64,000 nt of DNA from Microbacterium salitolerans. GTDB lineage: Bacteria; Actinomycetota; Actinomycetes; Actinomycetales; Microbacteriaceae. A program made the translations under genes and the position numbers. How positions within the stretch are numbered: the stretch's first letter is position 1; each line of letters begins with the position of its first letter. Positions 1,719 to 21,638 of this stretch are shown piece after piece. The notes beneath the pieces are model-generated. The model was not told the origin of the DNA. It searched no databases and saw only the letters and a program-made list of their open reading frames with translations. Where the stretch lies: the NCBI RefSeq assembly GCF_019720895.1, contig NZ_JAHKSH010000003.1, forward strand, positions 124,001-188,000, in the 5' to 3' direction.

Positions 1719-1741
1719 CTTATGTGTAGATCATGCATAAG
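1719..1741. promoter_or_regulatory. Inverted-repeat operator candidate, CTTATG-N11-CATAAG
   Basis: Perfect six-base arms flank an 11-base spacer, 47 bases upstream of the fused CarC-CarB start. The left part belongs to a longer block, GGAACACTTATGTG (1713-1726), which recurs nearly unchanged between the LysR gene and the ABC operon. Binding by that LysR protein is an inference. Confidence 0.5.
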
Positions 1742-1788: not shown

Positions 1789-3255
1789 ATGCCCAACGGA
1801 CTCATCGCCGCCGACAGTCTCCGCCTCCACTCCGAGGGCGCGGCGCTGCGCCTGCAGATCCCCTGGTATCGCAGCCTCTGGCTGTCGTCGGTCACGACGA
1901 TCACCATCGCGATCGACGGATCCGAGGTGCCGCAGGGCGACCTCGTCCTGGAGCTGGCCGGTCGGCGCTACGCGCTCGACGAGCTGCCCGCGCAGAGCGA
2001 GACGCTCTGGCATCTGCAGGAGCACCCGCTGCTCGTCGCGCGCCTCGCGGCGCCCCTCGGGCTCGGGGAGGCGCATCACGTCGTCGTGCACGGCGAGCTC
2101 CGTCTCCCGTACATGCAGATCGCGGCGGGCGAGGATGGTGGCCCGGGCATGTATGTCCCCAACGTCGTGCACCAGGACGAGGAGCTCGTCGTGACGGACC
2201 GCGACGCTCCGGTCCCCGCGCTCGAGCGGATCACCGAGCCGCGGCCGCCGACCGAGGAGGACCCGTTTCCGCTCGGCCTCACCCTCTATTCCGCGAGCGC
2301 CGAGTACCGCGCCGGCTGGTTCGACTTCGACGGCCTGCTCGACCGCGTCGCCGACCTGGGCATCGGCCCCGGCATCGAGATCGTCGCCTCGCAGATGCTG
2401 CCGGAGTACCCGCTCGTCACCGACGCGTTCGAGAGGCGGTGGCGGGCGGCGTTCGACCGGCACGGATTCGTCGCGAGCTCGTTCGGCGCGAACCTGGACA
2501 TGGGGCGTCGCCGCGACCGCGACATGACCCCCGACGAAGAGTATGAGTTCACGCGCGTGCTCTTCGAGGGCGCCGGGCGCTTGGACTTCCCGCTCATCCG
2601 GATCCAGAGCGCGAAGCCCGAGCTGCTGCGCCGCCTGCTGCCGCTCGCGGAGAAGCTGGGCGTGAAGCTGGCGTATGAGATCCATGCCCCGATGGGCCCG
2701 AACTCGCCCGAGATCCTGCGGGTGCGCGAGGTCTACGAGGAGCTCGGTTCCCCTCTGCTCGGATTCGTGGCCGATTTCTCGTCGACGATGCGCCGGATGT
2801 CGCCCACGCTTCTGCGCGCTGTCGAGCGCGCGGGCCTCGACGCCGGGGCGCTCGATCGACTCCAGGGGATCTGGGCGACCGACGCGTCGATGCGCGAACG
2901 CCAGGAGGAGTTCATCGCGTATCTGCGGGCTCGCGATTTCGACCCGGGGCGACTCGGATCCTTCGCGCACCTCGCCTTCAACATGCACGGTCACGTCGAT
3001 CCGACGGAGTGGGCCGACATCATGCCGCAGATCATGCACGTGCACGCGAAGTTCTACGACATCGACGCGTCGGGCGAGGAGCCCGCGATCGACTACCCGA
3101 AGCTCGTGCGCGTCTTCGTCGAGGGCGGCTATCGCGGCTTCTGGTCGAGTGAGTGGGAGGGCCACGCATTCGCCGAGATCGGCGAGGTGGATCCGCTCGT
3201 GCTCGTGCGCCGCCAGCACGACCTCATCCGCCGGAGCGCTGGGGTGCTGCGGTAG
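1789..3255 (+). CDS. Fused C-glycoside deglycosidase: CarC-like beta domain plus CarB-like alpha domain
   Basis: This 488-residue protein joins two polypeptides that are normally separate. Residues 1 to about 140 match the small beta subunit (DUF6379), with the signature IPWYRSLWLS and a later LPYMQIA..DGGPG block. After a Pro/Glu-rich linker (about 140-163), residues 165-488 form a sugar-phosphate-isomerase-type TIM barrel like CarB. Expected metal ligands are E297 (YEIHAP), D329 (ADFSST), H417 or H419 (HVHAKFYD) and E455 (SSEWEGHAF). In characterised systems the alpha/beta complex cleaves the C-glycosidic bond of 3-keto-C-glycosides. The ATG at 1789 has GGAG four bases upstream; a GTG at 1777 is less likely because it lies before that site. 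The closest relatives in the window are the separate alpha and beta genes at 13.3 and 14.3 kb. A shared frame with no interruption argues against a sequencing artefact. Confidence 0.85.
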   Translation: MPNGLIAADSLRLHSEGAALRLQIPWYRSLWLSSVTTITIAIDGSEVPQGDLVLELAGRRYALDELPAQSETLWHLQEHPLLVARLAAPLGLGEAHHVVVHGELRLPYMQIAAGEDGGPGMYVPNVVHQDEELVVTDRDAPVPALERITEPRPPTEEDPFPLGLTLYSASAEYRAGWFDFDGLLDRVADLGIGPGIEIVASQMLPEYPLVTDAFERRWRAAFDRHGFVASSFGANLDMGRRRDRDMTPDEEYEFTRVLFEGAGRLDFPLIRIQSAKPELLRRLLPLAEKLGVKLAYEIHAPMGPNSPEILRVREVYEELGSPLLGFVADFSSTMRRMSPTLLRAVERAGLDAGALDRLQGIWATDASMRERQEEFIAYLRARDFDPGRLGSFAHLAFNMHGHVDPTEWADIMPQIMHVHAKFYDIDASGEEPAIDYPKLVRVFVEGGYRGFWSSEWEGHAFAEIGEVDPLVLVRRQHDLIRRSAGVLR

Positions 3256-3393: not shown

Positions 3394-4335
3394 TCAGGGG
3401 TCGCGCGCGGCGTCCTCGACGAGGCGGCCGGCCTCTTCGAACAGGTCGCGCATCCACGCGTGCTCGGGGTCGCGTTCGTGCGACGGGTGCCACCAGAGCG
3501 CGTTGACGAGGGGTGTCGCGTCGAATGGCAGGCCCATCACGCGCACGCCTTCGGTCTGCTCGACGATCGGGGCGAGCGCCGACTGCACGAGACCCATGCG
3601 GTTCGTGCCCGCGACGAAGTGGGGCAGGGCGAGGAAGCTCTCGACGACCGCCTCGGTGCGCGGTTCGATGCCGAGCTGCTGCAGCTGTCGCGCGGCCGAG
3701 GTGAAGGCGGAGCGCGACTGATACGTCATGACGAACGGGCGCGCCGCGAGGTCGTCCATCGTGAGGGCATCGGCGTCCGCAGGCGCGTGGGACTCCGACA
3801 CGACTGCGACCCAGTCGTCGTGCCACAGGTCGACGTAGGGCAGGTCGGAGAGCGGGCCGTGCGGGATGATCATGCCGTCGGCCGAGCGCAGGCGGTTCGC
3901 GGCGTCGTCGACGATCGTCGGGTTGTGCAGCATGAAGCGGAATCTCACGCCGGGTGCGCGCGCGGCCGCGAGGCGTGACGCGACCCGCCCGACGGTCACG
4001 AAGCCGTAGTCGGACCCGTAGATCGAGAACTCGCGCACCGACTCGGCGGGATCCCACGATGCCTGGCTCTCGAACACGCGCCGCACCGACTCGAGCGCGC
4101 CCGTCGTGTGCTCGGACAGGCGCACGGCGAACGGCGTCAGCTCGTAGGCGTTGCCGCGTCGCGCGAGGATCTGGTCGCCGAAGTGCGTGCGCAGTCGCGC
4201 AAGCGACGCGCTCAGGGCCGGCTGACTGAGGTGCAGGCGCTCGGCCGCGCGCGTGACGCTGCGCTCCGTCAGCAGCGCGTCGAGCGAGACGAGCAGGTTG
4301 AGATCGAGCCGCGACAGCAGCGCGTGTTCGGTCAC
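3394..4335 (-). CDS. LysR-family transcriptional regulator
   Basis: The 313-residue protein starts with a winged helix-turn-helix (about 8-65) carrying the LysR pattern RSVTRAAERLHLSQPALSASLARLR. A LysR substrate-binding domain follows (about 95-300). It is divergent from the ABC importer operon, with 230 bases between the two starts, which is the usual arrangement for a LysR activator of its neighbour. Two copies of CTTATGTG lie in that gap and a third lies upstream of the fused deglycosidase, so both units are probable targets. The inducer is unknown; a sugar or aglycone is plausible. Confidence 0.88.
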   Translation of the reverse strand: MTEHALLSRLDLNLLVSLDALLTERSVTRAAERLHLSQPALSASLARLRTHFGDQILARRGNAYELTPFAVRLSEHTTGALESVRRVFESQASWDPAESVREFSIYGSDYGFVTVGRVASRLAAARAPGVRFRFMLHNPTIVDDAANRLRSADGMIIPHGPLSDLPYVDLWHDDWVAVVSESHAPADADALTMDDLAARPFVMTYQSRSAFTSAARQLQQLGIEPRTEAVVESFLALPHFVAGTNRMGLVQSALAPIVEQTEGVRVMGLPFDATPLVNALWWHPSHERDPEHAWMRDLFEEAGRLVEDAARDP

Positions 4336-4432: not shown

Positions 4433-4464
4433 CACTTATGTGGTGCATTCGGAACGCTTATGTG
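4433..4464. promoter_or_regulatory. Tandem CTTATGTG sites between lysR and the ABC operon
   Basis: CACTTATGTG (4433-4442) and CGCTTATGTG (4455-4464) are direct repeats 22 bases apart, about two helical turns. The second lies in GGAACGCTTATGTG, which differs by one base from the site upstream of the fused deglycosidase. They probably bind the divergent LysR regulator. Confidence 0.55.
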
Positions 4465-4565
4465 CGTTTCCGGCAAAACCTTGTCAGAATCGCTTCATCC
4501 CATCGCGGCCCGTCACGAGACGGCCGGGAGCAGACCACACGACAAAGACGTCGAAAGGGCAGGAC

Positions 4566-5852
4566 ATGTCAACGAAGATCATCCGCCGCACACGCACCGG
4601 CGGTGCGATCGCGGTCGCCGCCATCGGCGCGCTCGCGCTCGCCAGCTGCTCGGGGTCGGACGAGACGGGAGGTGGCGGAAGCTCGTTCTCGCTCATGTAC
4701 TCCGCATCGAACACTCTCGAGAGCCCGTTCGAGACCCTGGTGAACGAGTACATGGAGACCCACGACGGCGTCACTATCGAGCTCGAGGCCGTGCCCAATG
4801 ACACGTACGGCGACACTCTGCGGACGCAGCTGCAGGCGGGCAACGCTCCCGATGTGTTCCAGACCGAGGGGGGGTCGGGTCAGACGCGAAGCGTGATCCC
4901 CCTCGCCGAAGCCGGGTTCCTCGAGCCGCTCGGCGAGGAGTCGGCCGCCCTCGTGCCGGAGAGCGCCGAGTCGTTCTTCACCATGGACGGCACGACGTAT
5001 GCCCAGCCGCTCGTCACGGCGTTCTCCGGGTACATCGTCAACGAGGTCGCGCTGGGCGACGCCGGCGCGACCGAGTTCCCGGCGGACTGGGACGGGTTCG
5101 TCGAGCTGTGCGAGGAGGCGAGCGACGCCGGTAAGTCGGCGCTCCTCGTGGCGGGGGCCGCGGGCCCGAACACCGGCATGTTCGCGATGAACATCGCCGC
5201 GACGCGCGTGTACGGCGAGACGCCGGACTGGAATGAGCAGCGCGCGGCCGGCGAGGTCACCTTCTCGGACTCCCCGGGCTGGGCCGACACCATGCAGGCG
5301 ATCCTCGACCTCGATGCGGCCGGATGCCTGCAGGAAGGCGCCGTCGGCGCCGGCTTCGACGCCCTGACGAACGGACTGGCGACCGGGCAGGGAATCGGAT
5401 TCTTCGCTCCCGGAGCGACCGCGACGGAGCTCGCACAGGCCGCTCCCGACGCGGACCTGCGGATCCACGCCTTCCCGCCGGAGACGACGGCCGACCCCGC
5501 GGTCGGAATCCTCAATCCGACCTACTCGCTGTCGATCAACGCGCAGTCGGACTCCGGGGAGGCCGTCGAGGACTTCTTCGCGTGGATCGCCGAGCCCGAG
5601 CAGGCCAACCGCTTCGCCGAGATCTCCGGCGGACTGCCCATCACGGGCCTGGACGAGTTCGACTTCGACGGGAGCACGTACGCCCCGGTCGCCGACCTCA
5701 TCCGCAATGACGAGGTGACGCCTCTGCCGAACGCCGGCTGGACCAGCCCCGCCGTCTACGAGGCCCTGGGCAGCGGAGTGCAGGGACTCCTGAGCGGCCA
5801 GGAGACGGTCGACTCGGTGCTCGCATCGCTCGACGCGGCCTGGGATCGCTGA
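4566..5852 (+). CDS. Sugar ABC transporter substrate-binding lipoprotein
   Basis: The 428-residue product has a basic N terminus, a hydrophobic segment and a lipobox ending LAS-C at about residue 23, so it should be an exported lipoprotein. The body has the features of CUT1 extracellular sugar-binding proteins: an early YGDTLRTQLQAGNAPDVF segment and a late pattern of hinge and helix residues. The ATG is preceded by GGGCAGGAC. Two CUT1 permease genes follow. The setting, next to deglycosidase genes and a LysR regulator, suggests uptake of a glycoside or its sugar, but the substrate cannot be read from the sequence. Confidence 0.88.
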   Translation: MSTKIIRRTRTGGAIAVAAIGALALASCSGSDETGGGGSSFSLMYSASNTLESPFETLVNEYMETHDGVTIELEAVPNDTYGDTLRTQLQAGNAPDVFQTEGGSGQTRSVIPLAEAGFLEPLGEESAALVPESAESFFTMDGTTYAQPLVTAFSGYIVNEVALGDAGATEFPADWDGFVELCEEASDAGKSALLVAGAAGPNTGMFAMNIAATRVYGETPDWNEQRAAGEVTFSDSPGWADTMQAILDLDAAGCLQEGAVGAGFDALTNGLATGQGIGFFAPGATATELAQAAPDADLRIHAFPPETTADPAVGILNPTYSLSINAQSDSGEAVEDFFAWIAEPEQANRFAEISGGLPITGLDEFDFDGSTYAPVADLIRNDEVTPLPNAGWTSPAVYEALGSGVQGLLSGQETVDSVLASLDAAWDR

Positions 5853-5929: not shown

Positions 5930-6883
5930 ATGTCGGCATCACCTGGCACGTCCGAGACCGAGCTGGTCATCGTCCCCCGCACGAAGCGACGGCGGTGGGG
6001 CGACCTGCCTCAGCGCCGCGCGGGGCTCGTTCGGTTCGGGCACTGGTGGTGGGCGCTTCCGGGCGTCCTCCTCGTGCTCGGGATCCACTACGGGGCGACG
6101 TCGGTGGGTGGATTCTTCGCCTTCACCGACTGGTCGGGCATCGGATCCTTCAGCCTGATCGGCCTCGAGAACTTCCGCACGATCTTCACCGACTCGCAGT
6201 ATCTGCTCGCGCTCGGGAACACCCTGTTCCTGGCGTTCCTGTCGGTGGTGGGGTCGAACGTCGGCGGTCTCGCCCTCGCCATCGCCCTCAACCGCACGCT
6301 CAAGACGCGATACGCGCTGCGGGTGGTCTTCTTCATGCCGGTCGTCCTCTCCCCGCTGGCGACGGCATACATCTGGCGCTTCATCTTCGAGTACAACGGG
6401 CCGATCAACATCTTCCTCGAGTCCGTCGGGCTGGAGGGGTGGGTGCGTCCGTGGCTCGCCGACCCGGCGTTCGCGATCTGGACGGTCCTCCTCGTCGTGG
6501 TCTGGCAGACGACCGGATTCGCCATGGTGATCTACATGGCGGGGCTGGCCGGTGTCGCGCCCGAGATCGAGGAGGCGGCCGCGCTCGACGGCACCAGCCT
6601 CTGGCAGCGCTTCTGGCACGTGACGCTGCCGTCGATCCGTCCGGCCGTCGCCATTGCGACGACCCTCGGCCTCGTGCAGGGCCTGCGGGTGTTCGACCAG
6701 ATCCTCGCCCTCACGGGAGGCGGCCCCGCCGGTGCCACAGAGACGCTGGCGACCCAGGTCTACAAAGAGGCCTTCTCGCTCGGCAACTTCGGGTTCGGCG
6801 CAGCGCTCGCACTGGTGCTCACCGTGATCATCCTCTTCTTCGCCGTGATCCAGCAGCGCATCACCGCAGGCAAGGACAGCTGA
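5930..6883 (+). CDS. Sugar ABC transporter permease (MalF/UgpA type)
   Basis: This 317-residue inner-membrane protein has about six membrane segments after a charged cytoplasmic N terminus of roughly 35 residues. It carries the permease EAA loop (EIEEAAALDGTSLWQRFWHVTLPSIRP, about 218-244), which contacts the ATPase. It forms the channel with the next gene, one base downstream. No ATPase gene occurs in the operon, so a shared MsiK-type ATPase encoded elsewhere is the likely energy unit. Confidence 0.9.
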   Translation: MSASPGTSETELVIVPRTKRRRWGDLPQRRAGLVRFGHWWWALPGVLLVLGIHYGATSVGGFFAFTDWSGIGSFSLIGLENFRTIFTDSQYLLALGNTLFLAFLSVVGSNVGGLALAIALNRTLKTRYALRVVFFMPVVLSPLATAYIWRFIFEYNGPINIFLESVGLEGWVRPWLADPAFAIWTVLLVVVWQTTGFAMVIYMAGLAGVAPEIEEAAALDGTSLWQRFWHVTLPSIRPAVAIATTLGLVQGLRVFDQILALTGGGPAGATETLATQVYKEAFSLGNFGFGAALALVLTVIILFFAVIQQRITAGKDS

Positions 6884-6884
6884 C

Positions 6885-7721
6885 ATGTTCCGATACACGA
6901 AACTCACCCTGCTGCGCGAGATCGGCATCTGGATCCTGGCGCTGGTGTTCCTCGCACCGTTCTACTTCCTCATCATGATCGCGCTGAAGCCCGACAGCGA
7001 GCTCCTCACGACCTCGCCCCTCGCCCCTCCCGAATCACCCACCGTCGAGAACTTCGTCAACGTGATGACGGCGACCGGCAACTCGAACGTGATGCTCGGG
7101 CTTCTGAACAGCGCGATCATCACCGCGGGGAGCGTCGTCGCGCTCGTGATCCTCGGCGCGCTCACGGGCTACGTCATCGCGCGATCGACGACGCGATGGG
7201 GGCGCGCGGCCTTCATGCTGTTCCTCGTCGCCATCGTCCTCCCGACGCAGCTCGGGACCGTGCCGCTCTACATCGGCGCGCGCGCGATCGGCCTGACGGG
7301 TTCGCACTGGGGGATGATCATCCTCTACACGGGGATGATGCTGCCGATGGCGATCTTCCTCTACGCCAACTTCTTCCGCGGGATGGGCACCGACTTCGAG
7401 GAGGCGGCGATGATCGACGGGGCGAGCCGCACCCAGGTGTTCTTCCGCATCATGTTCCCGTTGGTCGGGCCCGCCACCGGAACCGTCGCCATCTTCGTCG
7501 GCCTCATCATCTGGAACGACTTCTTCACGTCGCTCGTCTTCCTCGGCGGATCCGAGACGCAGACGCTGCCGGTGTCGATGTACTTCTACATCGGATCGCT
7601 CGTCTCGCAGTGGAATCAGATCTTCGCGATCGTGATCGTCGCGATGATCCCGATTCTCGCCTTCTATCTGTTCGCGCAGAAGCGATTCATCCAGGGCTTC
7701 GCCGGCGGACTCAAGGGCTGA
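6885..7721 (+). CDS. Sugar ABC transporter permease (MalG/UgpE type)
   Basis: The protein has 278 residues, about six membrane segments, and an EAA loop reading FEEAAMIDGASRTQVFFRIMFPLVGP near residues 170-195. It is the second channel subunit of the importer. The start follows the previous stop directly, so the two subunits are probably made in equal amounts. The next gene, 62 bases later, encodes a sugar-metabolic enzyme, suggesting one transcript for uptake and catabolism. Confidence 0.9.
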   Translation: MFRYTKLTLLREIGIWILALVFLAPFYFLIMIALKPDSELLTTSPLAPPESPTVENFVNVMTATGNSNVMLGLLNSAIITAGSVVALVILGALTGYVIARSTTRWGRAAFMLFLVAIVLPTQLGTVPLYIGARAIGLTGSHWGMIILYTGMMLPMAIFLYANFFRGMGTDFEEAAMIDGASRTQVFFRIMFPLVGPATGTVAIFVGLIIWNDFFTSLVFLGGSETQTLPVSMYFYIGSLVSQWNQIFAIVIVAMIPILAFYLFAQKRFIQGFAGGLKG

Positions 7722-7783
7722 CGCCCGCAGCTTCCCTCGTCCGGGCGCGCCACCTCGCGTTCGGACCGACCTCAGGAGACCCC

Positions 7784-8578
7784 ATGTACCAGCTCGCACC
7801 CAACATCGAACTGCTCTTCACCGAGGCCGGCGACTACCACGACCGCGTGCGCGCGGCGGCGGCCGCGGGATTCGACGCCGTCGAGATGTGGGGGCCCACG
7901 GGCGTCGATGCGCCCGCGGCGCCCAAAGACCTCCCCGCGCTGAAGGCGGCGCTCGAGGAGACGGGAACCCAGCTCACGGCGCAGCTCGCGGAGCCGCGCA
8001 CGCAGTTCATGATCCCGCCCTGGGACCACTCGGAGTTCTTCCGCAAGCTCGACGAGGGCGTGGAGATCGCGCGGGACCTCGGATGTCCGCGCATCGTCGT
8101 CGGCAGCGGCACGGGCTTCGGCGGCTGGAAGCGCCAGGTTCAGCTCGACAAGCTCGTCGAGATCTACCAGAAGGCGATCGCGCAGATCGACGGATCCGGC
8201 ATCGCGCTCGCGCTCGAACCGGTCAACGTGCGCGTCGATCATCCTGGCGCGCTGCTCGACCGCACGGCCGAGGCCGTATACGTCGCGCGGGGCGTCGACT
8301 CGCCGTTCTTCGGCGTGCTCTACGACATCTACCACTCCGCCGTCGAGGGCGAGGACATGGCAGTCGAGCTCGCGAACGCCGGCGACCTCGTGACCTACGT
8401 GCAGCTCGCCGATGCGCCCGGCCGCGGTGAGCCGGGCGCCGGCGAGCTCGACTGGCCCGAACGCCTCCGCACCCTGCGCGCGTCGGGCTACGGCGGGCCC
8501 ATCGGGCTCGAGTACTACCCGCAGACCGAGTCCGCGGCGTCGATCGCGCGCATCTCCGACTGGGCGGCGGGCGCGTGA
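7784..8578 (+). CDS. Hydroxypyruvate-isomerase-like TIM-barrel sugar isomerase/epimerase
   Basis: The 264-residue sequence fits the AP-endonuclease-2/xylose-isomerase-like fold and resembles Hyi proteins, with ALEPVNVRVDHPG, VLYDIYHSAVEGED, VQLADAPGRGEPGAGELDW and IGLEYYP blocks that supply the usual Glu, Asp, His and Glu metal ligands. The ATG has CAGGAG upstream; the long frame ahead of it is a shadow of the permease. Hyi enzymes interconvert hydroxypyruvate and tartronate semialdehyde, but here a role in isomerising a keto sugar from glycoside breakdown is equally possible. Confidence 0.8.
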   Translation: MYQLAPNIELLFTEAGDYHDRVRAAAAAGFDAVEMWGPTGVDAPAAPKDLPALKAALEETGTQLTAQLAEPRTQFMIPPWDHSEFFRKLDEGVEIARDLGCPRIVVGSGTGFGGWKRQVQLDKLVEIYQKAIAQIDGSGIALALEPVNVRVDHPGALLDRTAEAVYVARGVDSPFFGVLYDIYHSAVEGEDMAVELANAGDLVTYVQLADAPGRGEPGAGELDWPERLRTLRASGYGGPIGLEYYPQTESAASIARISDWAAGA

Positions 8579-8960: not shown

Positions 8961-9032
8961 GTGCACCAGATCGCGCCCGATATCGGGAGCCCGTACTCCA
9001 GCGGTCCTGTCGCTGAGGGGGTCGTCGCGTGA
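8961..9032 (+). CDS. 23-residue ORF resembling the start of the Hyi-like gene
   Basis: A GTG with a strong GAGGAG site six bases before it opens a 23-codon frame that ends in a GTGA overlap with the next gene. The peptide MHQIAPDIGS.. matches the beginning of the TIM-barrel gene 1.2 kb upstream (MYQLAPNIEL..), and the ribosome-site region matches too. It looks like the remnant of a duplicated or replaced isomerase gene. It may still be translated and couple expression of the following oxidoreductase. Confidence 0.45.
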   Translation: MHQIAPDIGSPYSSGPVAEGVVA

Positions 9033-10549
9033 GCGGCCGCTACCCCGACGACGTCGACGTCGTCATCGTCGGATCCGGCCCCGCGGGGTCCGCATACGCA
9101 CGGATCCTGTCGGAGCAGGCGCCCCTCGCGACGGTCGCGATGCTTGAGGTCGGGCCGACCGTGTCGGACCCGCCGGGTGCGCACGTCAAGAACATCGCTG
9201 ATCCCGACGCGCGGCGGGACGCGCAGAGGCGGTCCGAGGGGCCGGGCGCGGGTGGCGACACCGTCGGTTCACCCGGCGACGTGAAGGCGGGCGAACGCCG
9301 CCCGAGGCCCGGCACATTCCTCCTCGAGGACGGCTACACGCAGCCGGAGGAGGACGGCCTGCCGGTCGCGGCGTTCTCGAGCAACGTCGGCGGCATGGGG
9401 GCGCACTGGACGGCCGCGTGCCCGCGCCCGGGGGACAGCGAGCGGATCGGGTTCCTTGACGGCGAGGGCGTGCTCGACGAGCTGCTCGCCGAGGGCGACC
9501 GCCTGCTCGGCGTCACGGCCGACGCCTTCGACGCCGCGCCGTTCTCGGGCCTCGTGCGCGAGCGGCTCGCGGCCGTCGTCGACGACGGCCGTCCGTCCGA
9601 CCGCCGCGTGCAGCGGATGCCGCTCGCCGTGCACCGTCGGGACGACGGTCGGCTCGCCTGGTCGGGGTCCGATGTCGTCCTCGGCGACATCACACGGGCC
9701 AACCCGCGCTTCTCTCTCGTCGACGATTCGCTCGTGACGCGGATCCTGCTCGCGAACGGCGCCGCATCGGGCGTCGAGGTGCGCGACCGGCGCTCGGGCG
9801 AGACCCACGAGATCACGGCGCGGCACGTCGTCGTCGCGGCCGACGCGCTGCGCTCGCCGCAGGTGCTGTGGGCGTCGGGGATCCGGCCCGCGGCCCTCGG
9901 CCGCTACCTCAATGACCAGACGCAGATCGTGTTCGCGTCGCGGCTGCGCGACGTGGCGGGTGGCTCGGCACCTCGGGGCGATGGCGCGCTCAGCGAGACG
10001 AGCGGCGTCAGCTGGGTGCCGTTTACCGACGAGCTCCCCTTCCATGGGCAGATCATGCAGTGGGACACCTCGCCGATCCCGCTCGCGGACGATGATCCGA
10101 TCGTCCCCGGCTCGATCGTGGGCCTCGGCCTGTTCTGCGCCAAGGACCTCCAGGCATCCGATCGCGTCGCGTTCCACGAGACGGCGGTCGACGCATACGG
10201 CATGCCGGCCATGCGGATCCACTACACGCTCACCGACTGCGACCGTGCGGTCATCGCGCGCGCGAAGGACGAGATCGTGCGACTCGGCTGCGCCGTCGGC
10301 GAGCCGCTCGACGGGGATCCGTTCGTGCTGCCGCTCGGCTCGTCCCTGCACTATCAGGGCACGGTGCGCATGGGCACGTCCGACGACGGTGCGAGCGTCT
10401 GCGATCCGTTCAGCGAGGTCTGGGAGGCGCCGGGCGTCTTCGTCGCGGGCAACGGCGTGATCCCGACGTCGACCGCCTGCAATCCGACGCTCACGTCGGT
10501 GGCGCTCGCGGTGCGCGGCGCGCGCCGGATCGCGGAGCGGCTGGCCTGA
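9029..10549 (+). CDS. CarA-like GMC family FAD oxidoreductase (probable glycoside 3-oxidase)
   Basis: The protein has 506 residues. The FAD-binding motif is G15-S-G17-P-A-G20. NVGGMGAHWTAACPR near residue 120 is the GMC/pyranose-oxidase FAD segment, and the C-terminal catalytic pair is H441 (SLHYQGT) and N485 (ACNPTLT). Related FAD enzymes such as CarA of Microbacterium oxidise the C3 hydroxyl of the sugar in C-glycosides, the step before CarB/CarC cleavage. Location among four deglycosidase pairs supports that role. The GTG start overlaps the preceding 23-codon frame. A 54-bp palindrome follows the stop. Confidence 0.85.
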   Translation: MSGRYPDDVDVVIVGSGPAGSAYARILSEQAPLATVAMLEVGPTVSDPPGAHVKNIADPDARRDAQRRSEGPGAGGDTVGSPGDVKAGERRPRPGTFLLEDGYTQPEEDGLPVAAFSSNVGGMGAHWTAACPRPGDSERIGFLDGEGVLDELLAEGDRLLGVTADAFDAAPFSGLVRERLAAVVDDGRPSDRRVQRMPLAVHRRDDGRLAWSGSDVVLGDITRANPRFSLVDDSLVTRILLANGAASGVEVRDRRSGETHEITARHVVVAADALRSPQVLWASGIRPAALGRYLNDQTQIVFASRLRDVAGGSAPRGDGALSETSGVSWVPFTDELPFHGQIMQWDTSPIPLADDDPIVPGSIVGLGLFCAKDLQASDRVAFHETAVDAYGMPAMRIHYTLTDCDRAVIARAKDEIVRLGCAVGEPLDGDPFVLPLGSSLHYQGTVRMGTSDDGASVCDPFSEVWEAPGVFVAGNGVIPTSTACNPTLTSVALAVRGARRIAERLA

Positions 10550-11764: not shown

Positions 11765-12160
11765 GTGATTCCCGACCGCATCATCGAGCAGGGCACGCTG
11801 CGCAGCGACGGCCCACGCACATCGATCGAGGTGCGCATCCCCTGGTATCGCGCGCTGCCCGCCTCCTGCATCGCGGGGGCGGCGCTCACGGTCGACGGGG
11901 TCGTGGCTCCGACCGATTCGCTTCGGTGGGAGATGAACGGACGCACGTTCGCCTTCGCCGACATGGTCGACGACACCGACGAGTGGTGGTTCCCCGTCGA
12001 CTCGGCCGTGCTGTCGGGGGATCTCGCGATCGATCCGGCAGTGGACCATGAGGTGGCCGTCGACCTCACCCTCTACATCCCGTACATCGTCATCGGCGAG
12101 GACGAGGTGCTCCACATCGAAGAGCACGACGCCAAGAACATGAAGGCGGTGACCGCATGA
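11765..12160 (+). CDS. CarC-like C-glycoside deglycosidase beta subunit (DUF6379)
   Basis: The 131-residue protein contains IPWYRALPAS near residues 25-34 and the LTLYIPYIVIG strand near the C terminus, both matching the beta subunit. It lacks the DGGPG tail present in the other copies, so it is more divergent. The GTG at 11765 is preferred because GAGGAGG ends five bases upstream; an ATG at 11747 would put that site inside the gene. It overlaps the next alpha-like gene by ATGA, so the two should form a 1:1 complex. Confidence 0.78.
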   Translation: MIPDRIIEQGTLRSDGPRTSIEVRIPWYRALPASCIAGAALTVDGVVAPTDSLRWEMNGRTFAFADMVDDTDEWWFPVDSAVLSGDLAIDPAVDHEVAVDLTLYIPYIVIGEDEVLHIEEHDAKNMKAVTA

Positions 12161-13266
12161 CCGCGCAGCTCGGCACGCCCGTCCAGGGCGTCACGCTCTA
12201 CAGCTTCACCCGCGCCTTCCATGGGCGTGAGTATGACCTCGAGGGCCTGATCCGGAAGGTCGCGGCCGACGGCTACGGCCCCGGGCTCGAGGTCATCGGG
12301 TTCTCGAGTCTGCGCGGCTTCCCCGACGTCGACGACCGCTTTGCGGGCTGGTTCCGCGACCTCGTCGACGAGGTCGACCTCGTGCCGACGTCGCTCGCCA
12401 TCAACGCCGACATCGGGATCCACCGCGATCGCCTGCTGAACCAGGATGAGCTGATCGAGTACATGCGGCGTCAGATCGAGGCCGCCGCACGCCTCGGATT
12501 CCCCGTCGCGCGCGTGCAGATCTCGCTCACGCCCGATTCGATGGAGCAGCTCGTGCCCATCGCCGAGCAGTACGGCGTCACGCTCGCGCTCGAGGTGCAC
12601 GCCGATCAGTACGCGTCGCACCCGCGGATCCTCGCCCTGCGCGACCGCTACGAGAAGGTCGGATCCCCGCTCCTCGGATTCACGATGGACTGGGGCGCGA
12701 CCGTGTCGGGCTTCGCACCGTCGCTCATCGAGGCCTACCGGCGCCGCGGTGCGGGCGAGGAGCTCCTGGCCGCCGTCGCGGACCTGTGGAACGAGTTCTA
12801 CGCCGCGGGGCCGCCGGCCGACCAGACCGAGCACGGCGAGCGGTTCGGCCGCTTCATCGGGCTCGCCGCCCAGCACGGGCGCCCCGAGCTCGGCATCGAC
12901 TTCGGGATCAACGGCACGGGCCTGTTCGGCCCGGCGCGAGTTGACGACTGGCTGGAGATCATGCCGTGGGTGCGCCACGTGCACGCGAAGTTCTTCGGCA
13001 TCGATGAGAACGGCGAGGAGCCGTCGGTCCCTGTGCGCGACCTCATCGCGCTGCTCGTCGAGAACGGGTACTCGGGTGCCGTGTCGAGCGAGTACGAGGG
13101 CTGGCACTGGAACCACTGGCAGAGCCCGTTCGACATCGTCCGCGGCGAGCAGGCGGTGCAGCGCTCGGCCGCCGAGGGCGTGGGATCGCGCATGGTCACG
13201 GACGCCGCCGAGGCGCGCGCCGTGCTCGCGACCCACCACGCCGCCGCGATGGAGGTGGCGCGATGA
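12157..13266 (+). CDS. CarB-like TIM-barrel alpha subunit (divergent paralogue)
   Basis: This 369-residue sugar-phosphate-isomerase/epimerase-type barrel keeps the ligands expected for a divalent metal: E146 (ALEVHAD), D178 (TMDWGAT), H274 or H276 (HVHAKFFG) and E312 (SSEYEG). It differs from the 13.3-kb copy around the active site: MDWGATVSG replaces ADFSSTM, and there is a GIHRD segment instead of DMGRRKDRD. That suggests another substrate or a different step, such as hydration of the released unsaturated keto sugar. The gene overlaps both neighbours by four bases. Confidence 0.8.
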   Translation: MTAQLGTPVQGVTLYSFTRAFHGREYDLEGLIRKVAADGYGPGLEVIGFSSLRGFPDVDDRFAGWFRDLVDEVDLVPTSLAINADIGIHRDRLLNQDELIEYMRRQIEAAARLGFPVARVQISLTPDSMEQLVPIAEQYGVTLALEVHADQYASHPRILALRDRYEKVGSPLLGFTMDWGATVSGFAPSLIEAYRRRGAGEELLAAVADLWNEFYAAGPPADQTEHGERFGRFIGLAAQHGRPELGIDFGINGTGLFGPARVDDWLEIMPWVRHVHAKFFGIDENGEEPSVPVRDLIALLVENGYSGAVSSEYEGWHWNHWQSPFDIVRGEQAVQRSAAEGVGSRMVTDAAEARAVLATHHAAAMEVAR

Positions 13267-14291
13267 ACGGGGGAATCGCGGGCACGGGGATCCGCCTCGG
13301 CACCACCGTGTACTCGATGACGAGTGAGTTCTCCGCCGGTCAGTACACGCAGGAGTCGCTGATCCGCGCCGTCGCCGAGAAGGGCATCGGACCGGGTGTG
13401 GAGTTCAACATCGCGCAGCTGCTGCGTACCTATCCCGACGTCGACTCCGACTTCGTCGACCTGTGGTTCCGCACACTCGAGGACTGCGGGCTCGAGCCGA
13501 GCGCTGTCGGCACGAACCTCGACATGGGTCGGCGCAAGGACCGCGACATGACGCCGGAGGAGGAGCACGACTTCTTCGCCCGGCAGCTGAAGACAGCGCA
13601 CACGCTCGGCTTCAAGAAGATCGTCATCCGATCGGCGGGGCGCGAGCTGCTGCGCAGCCTCCTGCCGCTCGCCGAGAAGTACGACCAGGTGCTCGGCTAC
13701 GAGATCCACGCGCCTGTCGGCCCCAACGATCCGAAGATCGTCGAGATCCGCGAGCTATACGACGATCTCGGATCGGACCGACTGGGGTTCACGGCTGACT
13801 TCTCGTCGACGATGCACAGCCTGTCGCCGACGCTCCTGCGCACGCTCGGGCAGATGGGGATGGACGAGCGCCACTTCCCCGTCATGGAGGAGATCTGGCA
13901 CGAGCCGACCCCCATGCACGTGCGCAATCAGAAGTTCGAGGACTATCTGGTCGGCGAGGGCGTGGATCCGCTGCGATTCGGGCCGTTCACGCGTCTGGCC
14001 TTCAACATGCACGGGCTCGTGGCGCCGGAGGAGTGGCTCGACATCATGCCGCAGATCTTCCACGTGCACGCGAAGTTCTATGACATCGGGCCCGACGGCG
14101 AGGAGCCCGCGATGGACATTCCGCGCATCGTGCGGCAGTTCGTCGTGGGCGGGTACGAGGGGTTCCTCTCGAGTGAGTGGGAGGGGCACGCGTTCTCGGA
14201 TCTCGGCGAGGCGGATCCCATCGACCTCGTGCAGAAGCAGCACGCGCTCATGCGTCGCGCGATCGAGGAGACCGCCGCCGAGGCGGCGTAG
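13263..14291 (+). CDS. carB: C-glycoside deglycosidase alpha subunit (CarB-like)
   Basis: The 342-residue TIM barrel has metal-site residues E147 (YEIHAPVG), D179 (TADFSST), H267 or H269 (HVHAKFYD) and E305 (SSEWEGHAF), plus NLDMGRRKDRDMTPEEE, nearly identical to the barrel of the fused gene. CarB-type subunits cleave the C-C bond between sugar and aglycone in 3-keto-C-glycosides with a small beta partner. That partner is probably the next gene, 11 bases downstream. The ATGA overlap ties it to the previous gene. It is the best conserved alpha copy in the window after the fused one. Confidence 0.85.
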   Translation: MNGGIAGTGIRLGTTVYSMTSEFSAGQYTQESLIRAVAEKGIGPGVEFNIAQLLRTYPDVDSDFVDLWFRTLEDCGLEPSAVGTNLDMGRRKDRDMTPEEEHDFFARQLKTAHTLGFKKIVIRSAGRELLRSLLPLAEKYDQVLGYEIHAPVGPNDPKIVEIRELYDDLGSDRLGFTADFSSTMHSLSPTLLRTLGQMGMDERHFPVMEEIWHEPTPMHVRNQKFEDYLVGEGVDPLRFGPFTRLAFNMHGLVAPEEWLDIMPQIFHVHAKFYDIGPDGEEPAMDIPRIVRQFVVGGYEGFLSSEWEGHAFSDLGEADPIDLVQKQHALMRRAIEETAAEAA

Positions 14292-14302
14292 GAGGAGACG
14301 AC

Positions 14303-14719
14303 ATGGCCACGCACAACTCCCTGTTCTCCGAGAAGAACGTCCGCCGCACGGACGACGGCATCGCCGTGTCGGTGCAGATCCCCTGGTATCGCAGCCTCTG
14401 GCTCAGCGCCGTCGACGACGTCGACGTGACGGTGAACGGCGAGGCGATCCCGAAGGAGTCGCTGCGCTTCGAGCTGCAGGGGCGCTCGTACCGCGTCGCG
14501 GAGCTGCCCGACCAGTGGGACACCCTCTGGTTCGTCGCGGATCGCCCAGACATCGTGATCCCTCTCGACCCGGTGCCTGCGCCGGGCGACCGACTGACGG
14601 TCGAGGTCGTGCTCACGATGCGCCTGCTCTACATGCAGATCGCTCCGGGCGTGGACGGCGGCCCGGGCCGCTACGTCACGAACCGCGTGCCCGTCGAGCG
14701 TGAGGTCACGCTCGCCTGA
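14303..14719 (+). CDS. carC: C-glycoside deglycosidase beta subunit (CarC-like, DUF6379)
   Basis: A 138-residue beta-sandwich-type protein with IPWYRSLWLS (residues 25-34) and a LLYMQIAPGVDGGPGRYVTN tail, close to the beta domain of the fused gene. The small subunit completes the active site of the alpha barrel in known CarB/CarC complexes. The ribosome site AGGAGGAG is strong. It ends the four-gene run beta-alpha-alpha-beta and is followed after 11 bases by a 54-bp palindrome. Confidence 0.85.
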   Translation: MATHNSLFSEKNVRRTDDGIAVSVQIPWYRSLWLSAVDDVDVTVNGEAIPKESLRFELQGRSYRVAELPDQWDTLWFVADRPDIVIPLDPVPAPGDRLTVEVVLTMRLLYMQIAPGVDGGPGRYVTNRVPVEREVTLA

Positions 14720-20208: not shown

Positions 20209-21243
20209 TCACACCGAGGAGCTCTTGCCCGGGAGGCTGTGAACGCCTGAGGCCGGAGTCCTGCCACCGAGCGCCCGGCGCGCGAGGGCGAGGTGGGCCG
20301 TCGTCATCTCCGCCGGGGACTCGTCGAGCCAGGCGTGACCGCCCCACTCGCTGCAGAGCGTCCCGTCGAACGCCGTGCCGCGTAAGAGGCTCGCGACGTC
20401 GCGGATCGGCGCGCTGACGCGGCCGTCGGCGTCGTCGAGATCCCAGAACTTCAGGTGGAATGCGCCGACGAGCGGCAGCACGTCTCGCAGCTCGTCGGCC
20501 GACGAACGCCCGAAGCGCACGATCATGTCCATCGCCAGCGCCTGGGCGGATCCGGGGATCGCGCCGCCGCGCAGTGCCTCCCTGACGACACTCGGGGTCG
20601 CTGGATCCCGCCAGTCGTCGGCGAGGCGGCGCACGAGCGCCTCGTCGACGCCGGCCGCGGCCAGGGCTCGCACATAGCTCGTGGGGAGCGCCGGCATGAG
20701 CATGCTGATGTCGATGAGCAGACGGAGGTGCGGATCATTGAGGCGCGCGATCTCGCTGTACGCGGCGGCCTGCGCGGGCGCGCTGGGCGTCTGCGACCCC
20801 TGTGCCTCCTCGAACAGGATGAGGTCGAGGTCGTGCAGCACAGGCAGCAGTCGCGCGAGGAGGGCGGGGCCCGCCTGCCCGATCGGCAGGCGTACGCCTT
20901 CTGCGCCCAGGCGGCTGCTCGCGCGCAGCTGCGGGAGGAGGAACGCGAACCGCTCGTCCTCGTCGCGCGGCCGCCCGCTCTCGGTCCACTCGTCGATGCT
21001 CGCGCCGACGATGCTCACGCTGCCGCCCGCGTCCGCGAGCCGCTCGCGCAGGGCGTCGACCTCGTCGTCCGCTGGGACGGGGAAGCCTCGCCACACCTGA
21101 CCTGCCTCCACCTCGATGCGGTCGGCGACGCCGTCGGCCGCGATCGACGCGGCGATGTCGATCGCTCCGCGCTCGGCCCGCACGACCTGCGGTGTCCAGT
21201 TGAAGGCGCTCGCCGTGAGCTGCCACGCGGTGTCGTCGCTCAT
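20209..21243 (-). CDS. CarB-like TIM-barrel sugar isomerase/epimerase (divergent alpha paralogue)
   Basis: The 344-residue protein follows the alpha-subunit plan with the probable metal ligands in LFEEAQG (Glu), LLIDISM (Asp), GAFHLKFWDL (His) and LCSEWGGHAW (Glu). The N-terminal half is unlike the other copies, and the HVHAK motif has become FHLKF, so this is the most divergent alpha. The ATG overlaps the upstream beta-like gene by four bases, so the two should form a complex. The operon is headed by a ROK regulator on the same strand. It may act on a different glycoside or on a later keto-sugar intermediate. Confidence 0.75.
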   Translation of the reverse strand: MSDDTAWQLTASAFNWTPQVVRAERGAIDIAASIAADGVADRIEVEAGQVWRGFPVPADDEVDALRERLADAGGSVSIVGASIDEWTESGRPRDEDERFAFLLPQLRASSRLGAEGVRLPIGQAGPALLARLLPVLHDLDLILFEEAQGSQTPSAPAQAAAYSEIARLNDPHLRLLIDISMLMPALPTSYVRALAAAGVDEALVRRLADDWRDPATPSVVREALRGGAIPGSAQALAMDMIVRFGRSSADELRDVLPLVGAFHLKFWDLDDADGRVSAPIRDVASLLRGTAFDGTLCSEWGGHAWLDESPAEMTTAHLALARRALGGRTPASGVHSLPGKSSSV

Positions 21244-21635
21244 CGCACGTCCTCTCCCGCGAACGCGAGCTCGCGTCGGGCGTCGAGGGTCGCGATCTCC
21301 CGGTGGGGGATCTCGAGGGGAGAGCCGCCCATCGGCAGGTACGGGATGGCGAGCCGGAACGCGACCGCGACCTCGTGCGGGCCCTCGCCGAGGGGGACGT
21401 CCGCGACCACGACGAGCCGGTCCTGGAGGTGCCACCAGCCGCTCTCGTCGGTCGTGTCCGAGATCGTCCGGTCACCGAGACGGATCTGCGTCGCGCGCGC
21501 CGTGCCGTCGACCTCGACGACGAGGGCGGAGAAGCTCGACAGGGGAAGCGAGCGGATCCACGGCAGACTCAGCCGCAGAGCGAAGGTGTCGGCCGTGGTC
21601 GTCAGCGCGTCGTCGCGCAGCGCCGAGAGGGGCAT
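21240..21635 (-). CDS. CarC-like beta subunit (DUF6379), divergent
   Basis: The 131-residue protein retains LPWIRSLPLSS (about residues 24-34; IPWYRSLWLS in the other copies) and the strand FRLAIPYLPMG. It pairs by ATGA overlap with the alpha-like gene. It starts three bases after the ROK gene stop, so regulator, beta and alpha are one transcript. Similarity to the other beta copies is moderate, and the assignment leans on the pairing and the IPW-type motif. Confidence 0.7.
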   Translation of the reverse strand: MPLSALRDDALTTTADTFALRLSLPWIRSLPLSSFSALVVEVDGTARATQIRLGDRTISDTTDESGWWHLQDRLVVVADVPLGEGPHEVAVAFRLAIPYLPMGGSPLEIPHREIATLDARRELAFAGEDVR

Positions 21636-21638
21636 TCC

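Follow-up and report, generated by a model that had tools for sequence, protein, structure and literature searches.

The closest described relatives of the gene reported here are C-glycoside deglycosidases (CGDs) built from separate alpha and beta chains, enzymes that break the highly stable C-C bond in C-glycosides of plants. For one of them, AgCGD2, the available part of PMC8563793 gives Glu147, Asp179, His269, Lys271 and Glu305 as metal ligands, His149 as catalytic base and Glu307 as its helper, and links the preference for C8-glycosides to an unshortened Pro241-Phe242 loop and to Met249. According to the same text, EuCGD is a lid-less C6 enzyme, and the EuCGD and AgCGD2 heterodimers are 2.2 and 3.5 Å apart from PuCGD, respectively. 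Beside the oxidase of Pseudarthrobacter siccitolerans 4J27, only separate CGD genes are described in the available part of PMC10646112.

A one-piece CGD is also on record. PDB entries 8qrz (X-ray) and 8un2 (cryo-EM), released 2025-04-23 as "Microbacterium testaceum C-glucosyl deglycosidase (CGD), wild type", each contain one natural chain of 435 and 433 residues, respectively, with beta preceding alpha. The preliminary description of our gene had taken all known family members to be encoded by separate genes, which these entries contradict. It had also suggested a new architecture; this is rejected, since a natural beta-alpha chain has already been solved and fusions of the kind described here are common in their group. 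As to its proviso that many fusions might already be described, two solved entries of one protein exist, and no publication on that protein or on our fusion was found in the searched literature (most subscription journals and bioRxiv lay outside its scope, and one may exist). A 2024 paper (J. Mol. Biol. 436, 168547) reportedly deals with a CGD of Deinococcus aerius. In the following, the gene reported here is called type 1 and the solved protein type 2.

We analysed a window of 64,000 nucleotides from Microbacterium salitolerans (contig NZ_JAHKSH010000003.1, positions 124,001 to 188,000). Judging from sequence and structural model, its type-1 gene probably encodes a single-chain, lid-containing CGD of AgCGD2 type, which would cleave 3-oxo-C-glycosides in a cleft of its own and would derive from a joined beta-alpha gene pair. 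The relevant features are the following.

1720..1740, no strand: putative operator of LysR type, a perfect dyad TTATG-N11-CATAA whose first base lies 69 bp 5' of the fusion ATG
1789..3255, plus strand: predicted single-chain CGD, beta then alpha, type-1 fusion, 488 aa (one frame; Pfam; 7dnm_A/7dnm_B)
1789..2190, plus strand: beta-sandwich (CGDB) domain, residues 1-134 (Pfam CGDB; model strands to 134; 7dnn_B)
2191..2271, plus strand: Pro/Glu-rich linker, residues 135-161 (nearly without secondary structure in the model)
2272..3252, plus strand: alpha domain, a TIM barrel with lid, residues 162-488 (carries the metal ligands, base H299 and helper E457)
3394..4335, minus strand: LysR-family regulator (HTH_1 and LysR_substrate)
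4566..5852, plus strand: sugar-binding protein of an ABC importer (SBP_bac_1; ATG 4566 chosen, longest frame from 4386)
5930-6883 and 6885-7721, plus strand: two ABC-importer permeases (BPD_transp_1 in both)
7784..8578, plus strand: hydroxypyruvate-isomerase-like TIM barrel (AP_endonuc_2, E 4e-38 on 7766-8578; ATG 7784 chosen; TIGR03234 below cut-off)
9029..10549, plus strand: GMC flavo-oxidase related to pyranose oxidase (GMC_oxred_N/C; pyranose_ox TIGR02462, E 6.5e-62, below cut-off)
11768..13266, plus strand: separate CGD pair 1, with beta of uncertain start up to 12160 and alpha following at 12157-13266 (CGDB, AP_endonuc_2)
13263..14719, plus strand: separate CGD pair 2, AgCGD2-like, alpha (13263-14291) then beta (14303-14719) (AP_endonuc_2, CGDB)

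The type-1 frame runs uninterrupted for 488 codons from ATG 1789 to a stop ending at 3255. AGGAG is located at 1780-1784, four bases 5' of the ATG, and the N terminus MPNGL shows no variation across a 23-row alignment. Pfam CGDB (PF19906) matches residues 16-108 (E 1.5e-12, 47.8 bits against a cut-off of 27.6) and AP_endonuc_2 matches residues 278-468 (E 1.6e-9, over its cut-off). The proposed single frame with beta domain followed by alpha domain is confirmed; it lies in a C-glycoside locus. Among solved chains, the fusion matches best the two subunits of AgCGD2: alpha (7dnm_A, E 1.6e-123, residues 161-483, 323 residues without gap) and beta (7dnm_B, E 2.7e-21, residues 3-114). Both domains also match the separate genes downstream, as had been noted: the alpha domain is 53% identical to 13263-14291 and 36-38% to 12157-13266, and identities of the beta domain are 42% with 14303-14719 and 30% with the gene that ends at 12160. 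Of the two pairs, the AgCGD2-like one (13263-14719) is therefore the nearer to the fusion. A linker of about 25 residues had been proposed; its Pro-rich character holds, and its length is about 27 in the model, as counted between residue 134, where the final strand of the beta domain stops, and residue 162, where the alpha domain has the start of its first strand. The linker has nearly no secondary structure in the model, with ten-residue pLDDT means of 79-96.

For comparison, 76 loci were collected from public species genomes (best 80 of 100 confirmed matches): 66 are fused in one frame, nine encode beta and alpha separately and one is frame-broken. Because search patterns were built from the window protein and only the best 80 matches were kept, this set is biased to close relatives. 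Individual loci and genomes are referred to by L and G numbers, respectively.

A structural model of the fusion, built from 75 rows that comprised fused and type-2 proteins as well as separate subunits, each taken from the window or the L loci, reached pLDDT 92.9 and pTM 0.91; an earlier model from 23 close rows (pLDDT 72, pTM 0.69) was too weak for domain placement. The alpha domain superimposes on 7dnm_A with rmsd 2.1 Å over 335 of 336 residues, at 56% structural-alignment identity, and the beta domain on 7dnn_B with 1.5 Å (TM by target 0.91). The lid region is included, given the ungapped 323-residue alignment and the near-complete coverage of 7dnm_A.

The two domains of the type-1 chain may be arranged differently from those of the solved one-piece chain. 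Comparison with 8un2_A, in which one side is a prediction, gives 16.3 Å over 391 residues of both domains, whereas the alpha part of 8qrz fits with 2.4 Å over 291 residues. To judge from the model, the beta domain of the solved chain likely caps the alpha domain of its neighbour. By analogy, activity of the type-1 chain might require a domain-swapped oligomer, or mixed complexes might form between its beta domain and separate alpha subunits of the cell; genes for homologous separate subunits are present in the cluster. We regard this as rather unlikely: the monomer model places both domains with its pTM of 0.91, a linker of about 27 residues is available, and CGDs of soil bacteria with separate subunits are alpha-beta heterodimers in the available part of PMC8563793. 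The self-contained AgCGD2-type chain is thus retained as the preferred reading.

We examined conservation of the active site by mapping AgCGD2 residues through the ungapped alpha alignment (offset 150). The preliminary description had counted four expected metal ligands; they are present, but AgCGD2 has five, and all five are found in the fusion as E297, D329, H419, K421 and E455. These are conserved in 66/66 fused loci (best 80 of 100 matches), as are base H299, helper E457, residues Y167, S274, N398 and M399, and Q110 of the beta domain. Two positions deviate from AgCGD2. Its aglycone-contacting Arg123 is replaced by Gln (Q273) in all 66 fused loci, and Thr3 of its beta subunit maps, by alignment offset, to the start Met of the fusion; specificity may therefore differ. 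Pro241 is replaced by Ser in 50 and by Ala in 16 of the 66 loci, and F392 is kept in all. N398, M399 and the unshortened 390-392 loop, shared with AgCGD2, weakly suggest a preference for C8-glycosides.

As the catalytic residues are present, the fusion would follow the AgCGD2 mechanism, with the chemistry taken from the available part of PMC8563793. C-glycosides would enter through the neighbouring ABC importer, and a CarA-like oxidase would oxidise the sugar at C3; from its sequence, the GMC oxidase at 9029..10549 is likely a C-glycoside 3-oxidase of CarA/G3Ox type that supplies the substrate. The 3-oxo-C-glycoside would then bind in a cleft formed by the beta domain and the alpha barrel of one and the same chain, where the metal held by E297, D329, H419, K421 and E455 would activate an aglycone hydroxyl. 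H299, aided by E457, would abstract the proton from C2, and the C-C bond between aryl group and sugar would break in a step resembling beta-elimination.

The same fold and site might instead serve another reaction, as 3-keto-O-glycoside beta-eliminase or 3-keto-glycal hydratase acting on glycosides other than C-glycosides. Structural matches of the model include the related TIM barrels of a 3-keto-glucoside lyase (8tcd) and an epimerase (6wn6), and the related barrels LgdB1 and LgdB2 are a beta-eliminase and a hydratase in the available part of PMC10066097. The invariant replacement of Arg123 by Gln and the presence of three other CGD-like pairs in the genome point in the same direction. Nevertheless, we consider such an activity improbable, given the close structural match to AgCGD2 alpha, the lid, the complete set of AgCGD2 catalytic residues, a beta domain with invariant Q110 and a CarA-like oxidase in the same locus. 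Cleavage of 3-oxo-C-glycosides is accordingly kept as the favoured function. Because of the three additional pairs, the fusion may be redundant or may act on another aglycone. A strongly diverged alpha/beta CGD-like pair, the fourth, occupies 20212-21638 on the minus strand of the window; its beta frame lies below the CGDB cut-off, and Pfam gives nothing at E 0.01 for its alpha frame.

Distribution of the fusion was determined at several taxonomic levels; many G genomes and L loci represent the same species, so that genus and locus counts are not independent. In the genus, 81/367 Microbacterium genomes (own included) match the fusion at E 1e-20 or better. One uninterrupted match from query residue 1 to at least 479 is present in 71 of the 367, three of 74 carriers have a broken copy, and seven of the 81 contain only other CGD genes. 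The full fusion occurs in 14/299 genomes of the family (even sample, own genome included), while among 396 genomes of the phylum it was detected at E 1e-60 in its own genome only. Carriers among the matches listed belong to Microbacterium, Agromyces, Leifsonia, Subtercola, Naasia, Arthrobacter and Pseudarthrobacter, and include Arthrobacter globiformis NBRC 12137 (L089) and P. siccitolerans 4J27 (L085). Between two landmarks the linker measures 37 residues in 61/67 sequences, 36 in five and 38 in one, and its sequence is variable. Compared with G045, which among the relatives has the highest identity, codons of the linker differ by 14, 17 and 46% at first, second and third positions; divergence is thus mostly at third positions, a coding pattern.

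The preliminary description had considered that a sequencing error might hide a stop between the domains. That the fusion is an artefact of sequencing or assembly, or a decaying gene, is hardly credible: the broken copies in three of 74 genus carriers (G282, G003 and G070; sequencing errors or loss) and in one of the 76 loci (L110, best 80 of 100 matches) face 71/367 genomes and 66/76 loci in one frame, and these counts together with the coding pattern of its linker refute such a reading for the window gene. L110 and G070 are the same record, and the break in G282 falls at the linker, which could reflect a re-split gene or a sequencing error. The type-1 fusion is thus real, common to many relatives, and a variant beside the already solved one-piece CGD.

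Relationship of the two one-piece types was then considered. The 433 residues of the solved chain are 100% identical to the product of L066:6691-7989 in M. testaceum NS220, a type-2 gene that sits just upstream of a type-1 orthologue. The same arrangement is widespread: a fused full-length type-2 gene lies upstream on the same strand in 55/66 type-1 loci (best 80 of 100 matches), in 54 of them within 80 bases and in one 1204 bases away. Five of the remaining loci have an unfused type-2-like alpha gene, one is cut by a contig end, and in five no type-2 gene was found at 40% identity or more (L039 and L052 have a diverged CGD-like pair instead). In the genome of the window, a type-2 query finds only other CGD genes (28-37% identity) and no type-2 gene. 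The locus is bordered by a tRNA-Leu (CAG) gene at 1480-1566, immediately 5' of the fusion; unlike the window genome, G045 has a type-2 gene before its fusion. The tRNA border and the absent type-2 gene suggest the edge of an island with a local deletion.

Among two-chain CGDs, type 2 matches EuCGD alpha best (7bvs_A, E 1.4e-63). At the metal-ligand His (position 269 of AgCGD2), Gln is found in 66/66 type-2 genes (60 full-length fusions, one cut by a contig end and five unfused), whereas all 66 type-1 fusions have His. Metal chemistry of type 2 may differ from the published mechanism; EuCGD itself has His at this position. The linkers also differ, with about eight residues in type 2 by sequence against about 27 in type 1. 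We tentatively raise the possibility, which we hold with some doubt, that CGDs were joined at least twice, that type 2 is domain-swapped across its short linker while type 1 is a self-contained monomer, and that many Microbacteriaceae and Micrococcaceae carry both. If true, one operon would encode two single-chain CGDs with different metal chemistry and aglycone preference, one EuCGD-like (C6) and one AgCGD2-like (C8).

To estimate evolutionary relationships, phylogenetic trees were constructed on subsets, first of 84 alpha rows, then of 57 alpha and 60 beta rows; all are unrooted and carry long-branch warnings. In the 84-row tree, type-1 fused alpha domains form one clade (25/25 rows, 100/100) among separate-gene relatives. 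Its neighbours are the unfused pairs of L101-L108 and L112 together with the AgCGD2-like pair, and type-2 fusions are found elsewhere in the tree. When the 29 fused alpha domains of the 57-row set were forced into one clade against the 28 separate ones, lnL dropped by 209 (p-AU 2.0e-6), so that one common fusion for all one-piece CGDs is rejected. Placing fused and separate states on the alpha tree needs three changes, two of them forced by starred branches. The beta tree agrees in outline, with the exception that the fused beta domain of G715 is placed among separate domains (95/81), in conflict with the alpha tree.

Separate origins are further supported by a double dissociation of fused and separate states: in five loci of Geodermatophilaceae (L102-L106), type 2 is fused and type 1 consists of separate genes, and the reverse is true of Leifsonia and relatives (L053, L068, L097, L109) and of L038. 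By this sequence evidence, types 1 and 2 result from separate fusion (or splitting) events; as the trees are unrooted, a single ancient fusion that was later split several times is conceivable. An unfused beta-alpha pair in the same order occurs in 9/76 loci (L101-L108 and L112; best 80 of 100 matches). These orthologues, in Geodermatophilaceae, Streptosporangiaceae and Sinomonas, are 62-69% identical over the best segment, the alpha domain, and have beta and alpha as separate adjacent or overlapping genes. Matches in these taxa spanned both domains and were considered as fusions until the frames proved to be separate genes. The type-1 fusion probably arose by joining such a neighbouring beta-alpha pair, an arrangement that its closest unfused relatives keep.

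Two distant genomes, G825 and G1050, gave CGDB-like matches in frames longer than 500 aa and were rejected as CGD fusions, for their partner is URO-D and their N-terminal domain fits HMG-CoA_red_N better. L121:1332-2861 and L122:626-2149, in two other genomes of the phylum, combine an N-terminal domain matching HMG-CoA_red_N, and weakly CGDB, with a URO-D barrel; the beta domain of CGDs may be one of a wider set of domains found beside TIM barrels.

Gene order around the fusion was counted over the 66 fused loci (best 80 of 100 matches), with the window proteins as queries and flanks of up to 8 kb, so that all counts are lower bounds. A LysR gene on the minus strand 3' of the fusion is present in at least 47/66 (matches 70-79% identical), and no orthologue was found downstream within the flank in the other 19. 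The binding protein follows in at least 55/66 (44 of those on the plus strand), the two permeases in at least 48/66 and 43/66, the isomerase-like barrel in at least 37/66 and the GMC oxidase in at least 35/66. The order LysR, binding protein, permease, permease is kept in at least 37/66 loci and extends to isomerase and GMC oxidase in at least 25/66; P. siccitolerans 4J27 (L085) has the full gene order.

Binding sites of LysR regulators take the form T-N11-A. With up to one mismatch, the dyad TTATG-N11-CATAA occurs twice in the window (1720-1740, and 4458-4478 before the importer with one mismatch), against 0.02 expected. In 33/65 loci it stands no more than 150 bp before the operon's first CGD gene, compared with 0.18 expected from its density elsewhere; L042 was left out because its contig ends before the operon, and no dyad was found at this place in the other 32/65. 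The majority form is TTATGTCTGAATCAGGCATAA (loci L037-L112), and a TTATG-N11-CATTA form precedes 9/38 downstream separate beta genes. From this distribution, the dyad is a probable shared operator of the C-glycoside locus, and its position and T-N11-A form suggest that the adjacent LysR protein probably controls expression through it. With no LysR orthologue found downstream within the flank in 19/66 loci and no dyad found in 32/65, this context is common rather than universal.

Two separate fusions that lie next to each other in an operon represent a natural experiment in turning a heteromeric enzyme into one chain, and unfused orthologues still exist for comparison. The picture of the soil C-glycoside locus is extended as well: where gene order is kept, the LysR gene and the importer separate the fusions from the block of oxidase and CGD genes. 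Both A. globiformis NBRC 12137 and P. siccitolerans 4J27, strains used for studies of C-glycoside loci, carry the fusion, and that of the former is not mentioned in the available part of the 2021 AgCGD2 paper (PMC8563793). One gene with a complete canonical CGD site would spare co-expression of two subunits in deglycosylation of C-glycosides such as puerarin, orientin, mangiferin and carminic acid.

Among known systems, AgCGD2 of Arthrobacter globiformis (7dnm/7dnn) shares with the fusion both domains, the lid, the five metal ligands, His149, Glu307, Asn248 and Met249; it differs in being a heterodimer of two chains from two genes, with Arg123 where the fusion has Gln and beta Thr3 in place of the start Met. 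EuCGD (DfgA-DfgB) and PuCGD (DgpB-DgpC) have the fold and the metal site in common with it. In the available part of PMC8563793, these gut enzymes are alpha4-beta4 heterooctamers of separate chains and EuCGD is without lid. The protein of 8qrz and 8un2 is, like the type-1 fusion, a natural single chain with beta before alpha, although the two are only 25% identical, with gaps in the lid region. In all CGDs of the available part of PMC8563793, alpha and beta are distinct chains that make up a hetero-oligomer, whereas the fusion is one chain, which is an architectural and not a functional trait; 8qrz, named CGD by its depositors, likewise does without separate alpha and beta chains.
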